Source: Brachyspira murdochii DSM 12563
Lineage (GTDB): Bacteria; Spirochaetota; Brachyspiria; Brachyspirales; Brachyspiraceae
DNA: 64,000 bases
NCBI RefSeq assembly: GCF_000092845.1
Contig: NC_014150.1
Location: forward strand, 1,302,001 to 1,366,000
Direction of reading: 5' to 3'
Numbering within the stretch: the first letter of the stretch is position 1; the number at the start of each line of letters is the position of its first letter. The notes below the pieces were generated by a model that was not told where the DNA came from, searched no databases, and saw nothing but the letters and a program-made list of their open reading frames with translations. Shown here in pieces: positions 41,623 to 43,135 of this stretch. The translations under genes and the position numbers were made by a program.

Positions 41623-42156
41623 CTAAAAAATAAAATCTGGTATATTTTTATCTTTTTCATTCATTATTCTATTTTCACATTCAGGCCATTTAATATTAAA
41701 TGCCAGATCATTCCATCTTAAATAACCATAAGCATCAGGTACAAAATATGTACTTAAGAAATAAGCAACTATAGTATCATCTTCTAATGTCTGAAAACCA
41801 TGGGCAACATAAGGAGGAATATAAACCATTTTTCCATTTTCTTCTGATAATTCAATAGAGGAATATTTACCATAAGTAGGAGAATCTTTACGTATATCTG
41901 CTATTACATCAAATATTTTCCCTTTTAAACATCTAACAATCTTTATTTCTGGATAAGGATATTTTTGATAATGCATACCTCTTAATGTACCTACTTTTTT
42001 ATTATAGTTTATATTAGATTGTATTAAATTAAAATTTAAATTATATTTTTCGAGTTCTTTATTATCAAACATTCTTAAAAAATAGCCTCTTTCATCTTCT
42101 ATATAATTATTTTGCAATATATATGAACCTTCTATAATATTTTTTCTTATAATCAT
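41623..42156 (-). CDS. RmlC-like dTDP-4-dehydrorhamnose 3,5-epimerase
   Basis: 177 aa cupin. Family motifs: ERGYFLRMFDNKEL, TLRGMHYQKYPYPEIKIVRC, and YIPPYVAHGFQTLEDDTIVAY with the active-site His/Asp region. It epimerises a dTDP- or CDP-4-keto-sugar. rmlA, rmlB and rmlD are not in the window, so the donor may not be rhamnose. GGGAG precedes the ATG. In one of three repeat states of the upstream epimerase gene, translation would end as an ATGA overlap on this start codon. Confidence 0.93.
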   Translation of the reverse strand: MIIRKNIIEGSYILQNNYIEDERGYFLRMFDNKELEKYNLNFNLIQSNINYNKKVGTLRGMHYQKYPYPEIKIVRCLKGKIFDVIADIRKDSPTYGKYSSIELSEENGKMVYIPPYVAHGFQTLEDDTIVAYFLSTYFVPDAYGYLRWNDLAFNIKWPECENRIMNEKDKNIPDFIF

Positions 42157-42238
42157 TCAACACTCCCATATTTAAATAAATATAGGAATGTATTGACATT
42201 TAATTTTTGATAAAGTACAATAAAGCAGGATTTATATT

Positions 42239-43135
42239 TTACTGCTCTGCTCTGCTCTGCTCTGCTCTGCTCTGCTCTGCTATTAACTTACAAATAATAT
42301 CTTCCATATTACTATAATTATTAAAATTTAATTCATTAATAAGTTTTGAATTGTCTCCAATTATAATATTAGGTTCATTAGTATTTAATTCTTTTAACTC
42401 TAATAAATTTTCTTTATTCATTTTTTTAGCTATTATTAATGCAAAATCTTTTAATGATATCGCTTTACCAGAACAAATATTTATACTTCCTTTAAAATCT
42501 GAATCTGTAATTAAAGCTATAGCTTCTGCTACATCTCCAGCAAACATATAATCTTTTTTTAAGTGGGAATGATTAATAACAACTTTTTTATTTTCTTTTA
42601 AATTATTAATGATATATGGAAATATCCTTTTAGGATTTTCATTTTTTCCATAAGTATAAAAAACCCTGGCCCAACAAAAATCAATGTTATTTTTAATACA
42701 ATAGTATTCTGATATTGCTCTCAAATAATTTTTACATTTAGCATATGTACTAATAGGATCAATTTCATCATATTCCTTTAATTTATTATCAGTAAATTTA
42801 TACTCAAAACAAGTGCCTAAATAAACTGCTCTTCTACCATTGTTTTTTTTAAAATACTTTAACATCTCAATAGAAGAAGTTAATAAATCAAACTGATAAT
42901 TTGAATTTAAATCTTGTGTACTCCAAGCTAAATTTATCAAATATTCTGCCTTTATATCATCAAAAATATTTTCAACTGATTTATAATCAGAAATATCTAA
43001 CTTTATATATTTAAATTCTTCAGATATAATATCTCTGGTACCTATTCCATAAACATCAAATCCAAATTTCTTTAGAGGGGATGCTATATACTGACCAATT
43101 AAACCAGTAATTCCTGTTACTATAATTTTTTTCAT
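42239..43135 (-). CDS. NAD-dependent sugar epimerase/dehydratase, copy 2, with repeat-encoded C-terminus
   Basis: 298 aa, paralogue of the gene at 40734. NAD motif VTGITGLIGQYIASPLKKFG at the start and DYMFAGDVAEAIALITDSDF later. The last residues (AEQSRAEQSRAEQ) come from the (CTGCT)8 repeat and the frame stops directly after it with TAA. Other repeat numbers change the end: nine units would stop after a few codons, seven or ten would extend by 29 codons to the start of the RmlC-like gene. The catalytic core is not affected. Confidence 0.9.
   Translation of the reverse strand: MKKIIVTGITGLIGQYIASPLKKFGFDVYGIGTRDIISEEFKYIKLDISDYKSVENIFDDIKAEYLINLAWSTQDLNSNYQFDLLTSSIEMLKYFKKNNGRRAVYLGTCFEYKFTDNKLKEYDEIDPISTYAKCKNYLRAISEYYCIKNNIDFCWARVFYTYGKNENPKRIFPYIINNLKENKKVVINHSHLKKDYMFAGDVAEAIALITDSDFKGSINICSGKAISLKDFALIIAKKMNKENLLELKELNTNEPNIIIGDNSKLINELNFNNYSNMEDIICKLIAEQSRAEQSRAEQ
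42242..42281. repeat. Microsatellite (CTGCT)8
   Basis: Eight perfect pentanucleotide units (40 bases), AGCAG on the coding strand, at the very 3' end of the epimerase gene. Confidence 0.98.

Follow-up and report, generated by a model that had tools for sequence, protein, structure and literature searches.

Pentanucleotide Array at the 3' End of epi1

The window is a stretch of 64,000 nucleotides (nt) from Brachyspira murdochii DSM 12563, corresponding to bases 1,302,001-1,366,000 of its one-contig, 3,241,804-bp genome (G000, the focal genome). It carries a glycan operon on the minus strand, in the order of a GT87-type gene, epi1, rmlC, epi2, two glycosyltransferase genes, and an amine-oxidase-like gene (Table 1). 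The subject here is an array of eight AGCAG units that ends the epimerase gene epi1, and its putative effect on the translation of rmlC. The array is followed at once by the TAA stop codon of epi1, and 82 nt separate this stop from the ATG of rmlC. An earlier reading of this DNA made without database searches (the sequence-only reading) had described the array as (CTGCT)8 on the plus strand with the TAA directly behind it, and this description holds.

The reading frames were obtained by varying the unit number of the array in silico. With 8 or 11 units, the stop comes directly after the array (+3 nt) and the tail is AEQ*. With 9 or 12 units, the stop is at +10 nt past the array and the tail is AEQSSKI*. 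With 1, 4, 7, 10, or 13 units, the gap is read as VKYKSCFIVLYQKLNVNTFLYLFKYGSVE*, a 29-codon extension whose TGA overlaps the ATG of rmlC. The stops of the two short frames correspond to +82 and +75 relative to the rmlC start. The long extension with 7 or 10 units and the termination within four codons with 9 units had both been proposed in the sequence-only reading, and both are reproduced.

By its sequence, the catalytic part of epi1 is complete upstream of the array in every frame. Gain or loss of 5-bp units would thus spare the enzyme core and alter only the exit frame. Relatives of epi1 that lack an array have open reading frames (ORFs) of 289-295 codons, similar in length to epi1. Classical on/off switching of epi1 itself is ruled out by the position of the array 3' of the catalytic part.

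Dinucleotide shuffles of the gap were used as the test of chance. Some frame ends exactly on ATGA in 4.5% of the shuffled gaps (P = 0.045), and the proportion is 0.34% (P = 0.0034) when a stop within 10 nt is also required in each of the two other frames. Taken alone, the open frame is only mildly improbable and insufficient to carry the claim of a switch, and the earlier wording that it is unlikely to be chance overstated what this frame can show. The switch is convincing because the hairpin described below, which covers the Shine-Dalgarno (SD) sequence of rmlC, is crossed only by the long frame, and because there is a genus-wide set of such arrays.

The gap also contains a promoter-like site on the plus strand at 42193-42221, TTGACA-17-TACAAT (11/12), which is antisense toward the array and epi1. 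Promoter-like sites were not enriched over shuffles.

Table 1. Positions of the features of the glycan operon in the window, and of a conserved element found next to arrays elsewhere in the genus.
Feature	Position	Strand	Remarks
GT87-type membrane protein gene	45015-43288	-	
epi1, NAD-dependent epimerase/dehydratase gene	43135-42239	-	Pfam PF01370; 298 codons; carries the array at its 3' end
(AGCAG)8 pentanucleotide array	42281-42242	-	Rotation of GCAGA/AGAGC; starts after epi1 codon 284
TAA stop in use at 8 units	42239-42241	-	Putative uncoupled state
14-bp RNA hairpin, loop AUUU	42191-42160	-	Predicted fold; pairs the rmlC SD
GGGAG, SD of rmlC	42163-42167	-	Within the 3' arm of the hairpin
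ATGA, rmlC ATG overlapped by the long-frame TGA	42153-42156	-	n = 7, 10, 13...
rmlC, dTDP-4-dehydrorhamnose 3,5-epimerase gene	42156-41623	-	TIGR01221 above cut-off; PF00908; predicted to be switched
epi2, second epimerase gene	41612-40734	-	Starts 10 nt past rmlC; 4-nt overlap with the next gene
Family 2 glycosyltransferase gene	40737-39649	-	Second array at its 3' end
(AGAAC)15.2, second array	39810-39735	-	3' end of the family 2 glycosyltransferase gene, two genes 3' of rmlC
Intrinsic terminator	39690-39659	-	14-bp stem, then T-run; z = -5.26; from the terminator scan
Second glycosyltransferase gene	39625-38687	-	3' of the terminator of the second array
Amine-oxidase-like protein gene	38697-37408	-	
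Conserved element at AGAGC arrays	G001: L120:3069-3125, L121:3077-3135, L122:3079-3135, L124:3041-3097		Similar in L073, L125, L129

Predicted Hairpin over the Shine-Dalgarno Sequence of rmlC

The RNA of the gap is predicted to fold into a hairpin, ACAUUCCUAUAUUU-AUUU-AAAUAUGGGAGUGU, in which the SD sequence of rmlC is paired. The predicted fold has z = -2.77 in a context of 116 nt and -4.07 in a context of 57 nt. The probability that the SD is unpaired is about 0 in the predicted ensemble. Over the SD and the start codon together, the mean unpaired probability is 0.11 for rmlC versus 0.27-0.52 for six other starts of the operon. The short frames terminate 47 and 40 nt upstream of the stem, and the whole stem is crossed by the long frame only.

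The hairpin does not appear in the intrinsic-terminator scan, and it is ruled out as an intrinsic terminator since it has no U-run. An Rfam search of the gap and the related array loci gave no match up to E = 1. The covering of the ribosome-binding site of rmlC and the recurrence of the same arrangement across the genus are additions to the sequence-only reading.

Second Array in the Same Operon

The family 2 glycosyltransferase gene of the operon also ends in an array. This second array is now in its long frame, with the stop at +86 nt; the other two frames stop at +3 and +13. The terminator downstream of it, with the stem AAGCCTGTTGCTAA/TTAGCAACAGGCTT, is wholly translated in the current frame and the stop lies beyond it. 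Gain or loss of one unit would bring the stop to 3-13 nt from the array.

rmlC Loci in Other Brachyspira Species

G005, the closest relative in which this locus is present, keeps the gene order and has 15 units, versus 8 in the focal genome. Its 85-nt gap contains three substitutions, the hairpin is identical, and the long frame still ends in ATGA. The sequence-only reading had named an invariant unit number, or loss of the open extension where the repeat is retained, as outcomes that would speak against it. Neither outcome was seen: the unit number differs across species, and the long frame is retained in G005.

In another species (G001), the gene before rmlC encodes an RfbH-type aminotransferase and ends in an AAGAG array of 52 units. 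The arms of its hairpin are unlike those of the focal genome in sequence, and they are still predicted to pair the SD of rmlC. One more unit would give a 4-nt ATGA overlap of the long frame with rmlC. In G021, the upstream gene is also of the RfbH type and carries no array; its frame crosses the SD hairpin and extends 11 nt into rmlC. The locus in G021 can be regarded as a putative permanently coupled arrangement. An array also precedes rmlC in G011, where one frame runs past the start. At the rmlC homologue of G014, as at most others, both an array and a strong SD hairpin are missing. A scan of GTDB genome contigs returned three loci (B. alvinipulli is named among those with a homologue) and no further copy of this locus.

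The peptides encoded by the long frames differ among the focal genome, G001, and G021, and a conserved long-frame peptide is thereby ruled out.

Gene-End Arrays across the Genus

Arrays were surveyed with the patterns AGARC, AGAGC, AGAAC, and AGACC on both strands, together with fetched stretches, so that arrays of other units are under-counted. An array ending an ORF of at least 150 codons was considered as a gene-end array. The survey gave 60 distinct gene-end arrays, and 20 of 26 Brachyspira genomes have at least one. The AGANC-type unit (ACCAG, AACAG, AGAGC, or AAGAG) is on the coding strand in all 60 cases, and its complement never is.

The median stops of the three frames in the 60 arrays are 3.5, 12, and 88 nt past the array. 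At 50 of 60 arrays, some frame stays open for 55 nt or more, compared with 25 ± 3.8 in shuffles. A long frame together with a second stop within 20 nt is seen at 35 of 60, compared with 7.6 ± 2.5 in shuffles (maximum 16). The 154 gene ends without arrays give the same contrast. Long frames of at least 55 nt are found at 83% of arrays and 44% of these gene ends (Fisher 1e-7), and long frames with an early second stop at 58% and 25%, respectively. Chance alone is ruled out by the genus-wide shuffles, by the comparison with array-less gene ends, and by the gap shuffle that includes both early stops.

A downstream hairpin is detectable by prediction at 30 arrays, and 26 of these hairpins are terminator-like. 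At every one of the 30 arrays, a frame enters the hairpin or comes within 10 nt of it, compared with 15.2 ± 2.5 (maximum 23) in 1,000 shuffles. Exactly one reaching frame, with the two other stops at least 28 nt short, is seen at 20 of 30 (shuffles 6.8 ± 2.3, maximum 14). Currently, 16 of the 30 are in a reaching frame.

The array-bearing genes that were scanned are mostly of glycan-related types: glycosyltransferase, methyltransferases, pyruvyltransferase, GFO/IDH/MocA oxidoreductase, and RfbH-type. One array-bearing gene, L074:2283-3566, had no family match in the family scan.

Directly downstream of many AGAGC arrays lies a conserved element, TAATGTTTGAATATGCTTATCGAAAAACGGCATAAAATG...TTATTATCGG (Table 1). 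One frame through it gives a short tail, such as MFEYAYRKTA*, IFNNYYKEVA*, or IFNNYCKEAA*. The element has no clear hairpin and no Rfam match. The transfer-messenger RNA (tmRNA) tag of the focal genome is ADEYALAA. The element may be a frame-dependent C-terminal degron or an RNA element.

The focal genome itself contains further arrays of AGAAC and ACAGC types at L075:3773-3830, L077:3270-3317, and L078:3750-3803 and 4009-4088. Each starts immediately 3' of an ATG that has a good ribosome-binding site. One frame past the array stays open for some 200-280 nt, and in L075 and L077 it ends at the next gene. These arrays resemble the leader-peptide form of the pil1 type, which is introduced below.

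Proposed Mechanism and Alternative Explanations

Starting from the established array, its frames, the predicted hairpin, the ATGA, the comparative conservation, and the genus-wide pattern, the focal feature is probably a slipped-strand, phase-variable translational-coupling switch in a surface-glycan operon, now in the uncoupled state. In this proposal, epi1 would deliver ribosomes to the array, and the unit number would set the frame in which they leave the gene. In two frames (8 or 9 units), the ribosome would stop 3 or 10 nt past the array, ahead of the SD hairpin. As these stops lie 40-47 nt before the hairpin that buries the SD, rmlC would be poorly translated. In the third frame (7, 10, or 13 units), the ribosome would translate through the hairpin and terminate on ATGA. 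This passage could expose the SD, allow re-initiation at the rmlC ATG, or both. The second array of the operon would act in the same way on a transcription terminator in place of an SD hairpin. By the same logic, the valve at the second array would be open at present and that at rmlC closed. We infer that slippage occurs within a strain, and that it alters the output of rmlC with an effect on the surface glycan. The sequence-only reading had proposed that the unit number toggles the coupling and that the coupling is off at present. The toggling gains support from the SD hairpin and the loci of G005, G001, and G021, and the present state agrees with the stop at TAA with eight units.

Several observations weigh against this switch. 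The three clear loci of the SD type (G000, G005, and G001) are all in short frames, and no natural example of the ON state was seen. In G005, codon 121 of the epi1 orthologue (L064:8304-8666) is an in-frame TAA that interrupts the gene, and the switch there may therefore be idle or decaying. G011 is a weaker case because its SD sits in the loop of a stem and is mostly unpaired. Overall, SD accessibility differs weakly and not significantly between rmlC homologues with and without arrays (P = 0.08). Variation in unit number is observed between species only, since the comparison includes no two genomes of one species. Finally, single-linkage clustering of the downstream sequences merges most arrays; many of the 60 modules are related, and the P values therefore overstate their independence. 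What the genus-wide counts show is a design that has been maintained; they do not stand for 60 independent origins.

Arrays could simply grow where frameshifts are harmless, as they are at gene ends. Neither the open frame nor the hairpin would then have a regulatory role. The array does sit 3' of the catalytic part of the enzyme, and the open frame alone has a shuffle P of 0.045. However, mere tolerance does not predict the single orientation (60:0), nor the combination of two early stops and one long frame, which occurs at 35 of 60 arrays against 7.6 in shuffles and at 58% of arrays against 25% of array-less gene ends. It does not predict that a frame reaches a hairpin at 30 of 30 arrays, or that the same ATGA architecture is found with another repeat and another hairpin in G001. 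This explanation is considered unlikely.

Two further explanations accept a role of the repeat and differ in what it acts on. The gap hairpin might act at the RNA level, by attenuation, RNA processing, or Rho-dependent polarity, and not by hiding the ribosome-binding site, with the repeat still governing its disruption by ribosomes. Such action has parallels in the 26 of 30 sister hairpins that are terminator-like, including that of the second array in the same operon, and in the one experimental precedent, which is transcriptional; an untranslated gap could also load Rho. The focal hairpin, however, has no U-run and is not in the terminator scan, and the SD lies inside its 3' arm. Action at the RNA level is quite improbable on balance. 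It could also be considered that the tails themselves alter how stable or active the epimerase is, or where it is located, with incidental effects on the next gene. The tail indeed depends on the frame (AEQ*, AEQSSKI*, or 29 residues), and the separate array class described above encodes a conserved IFxxYxKEAA* tail, which loosely resembles the tmRNA tag. Nevertheless, the long-frame peptide is not conserved between the focal genome and G001, whereas the frame and its end are, and G021 sends yet another tail through its hairpin. A role of the tails is thus very unlikely to be the explanation.

Beyond the focal switch, it is reasonably likely that Brachyspira possesses dispersed pentanucleotide switches at the 3' ends of genes. 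Complete glycan-biosynthesis genes would serve as ribosome-delivering leaders, and the frame would open a terminator or an SD hairpin. Serial, independent valves in one operon would then give combinatorial control of the surface glycan.

Comparison with Known Systems

In classical loci with simple sequence repeats (SSRs), the repeat lies early in the ORF and switches the gene's own product on or off. The epi1 array differs in that its putative target is the next gene. It lies 3' of the catalytic part, and the product of epi1 itself would not be inactivated. SSR contingency loci include the tetranucleotide repeats in the lipopolysaccharide genes of Haemophilus influenzae (PMC2651432). The likeness is that a slippage-prone repeat in a surface-glycan gene shifts the reading frame. 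No repeat-based phase variation in Brachyspira was found in the literature searched.

The closest geometry is seen in the pil1/pil3 phase-variable attenuator of Streptococcus gallolyticus (Danne et al. 2014, PMC3894217). There, the length of a leader peptide depends on the number of GCAGA units, and pilus transcription rises when translation reaches a terminator. Expression is low when the stop precedes the hairpin by 28 nt or more, and high when it is next to, within, or after the hairpin (PMC3894217). GCAGA is a rotation of AGCAG, and in both systems the pentanucleotide array is within a translated ORF, here at the end of epi1. The unit number modulo 3 shifts the stop, here from 47 or 40 nt before the hairpin to beyond it. 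The Brachyspira arrays have the same or a nearly identical pentamer as pil1 and the same geometry. The differences are also clear. The operon of pil1 begins with a short leader-peptide ORF that contains the array, whereas the focal array ends a 298-codon enzyme gene in the middle of an operon. The pil1 hairpin is an intrinsic terminator, whereas the focal hairpin is predicted to hide an SD; the second array of the operon does face a terminator. Moreover, the long frame here ends in the ATGA overlap, and the Brachyspira arrangement is dispersed over many operons. The focal locus is not classed as the pil1 type because it lacks the short leader ORF and the terminator.

Coupling by RNA unfolding is known in phage f1 VII/IX and E. 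coli rpmI-rplT, for example (review PMC12548453). As proposed for rmlC, the downstream SD is in a hairpin opened by upstream translation, which crosses the hairpin and ends at the next start, here with 7, 10, or 13 units only. This type of coupling depends on the distance of the stop. In phage f1 VII/IX, a stop at +62 still allowed coupling and one at +89 abolished it (review PMC12548453); the short-frame stops here are at +75 and +82. The classical stop is fixed, whereas here a mutable repeat determines its position, and the coupling would be phase-variable.

If this is true, a gene can be gated through translation by a repeat at the 3' end of the gene before it, and location in the affected gene itself or in a promoter is not required. 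Scans of repeats aimed at early ORFs and promoters could dismiss gene-end repeats as harmless. Brachyspira would gain a large set of surface-glycan switches, and the pili of S. gallolyticus would be one case of a wider principle. RNA unfolding and re-initiation could be distinguished with natural constructs only 5 bp apart.

Other Features of the Locus

The proteins of epi1 and epi2 share a long identical stretch (ITDSDFKGS...SKLINE) close to the C-terminus and show 73% identity overall. The G005 orthologue of epi1 differs within this stretch. The identical stretch is the probable result of a recent gene conversion.

A (TGTT)11 tetranucleotide repeat is present at 45116-45160, 101 bp upstream of the start of the GT87-type gene. 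It could vary a promoter or leader of this gene. An isolated Terminase_3 gene (phage terminase large subunit) adjoins the glycan operon at 46379-47749.
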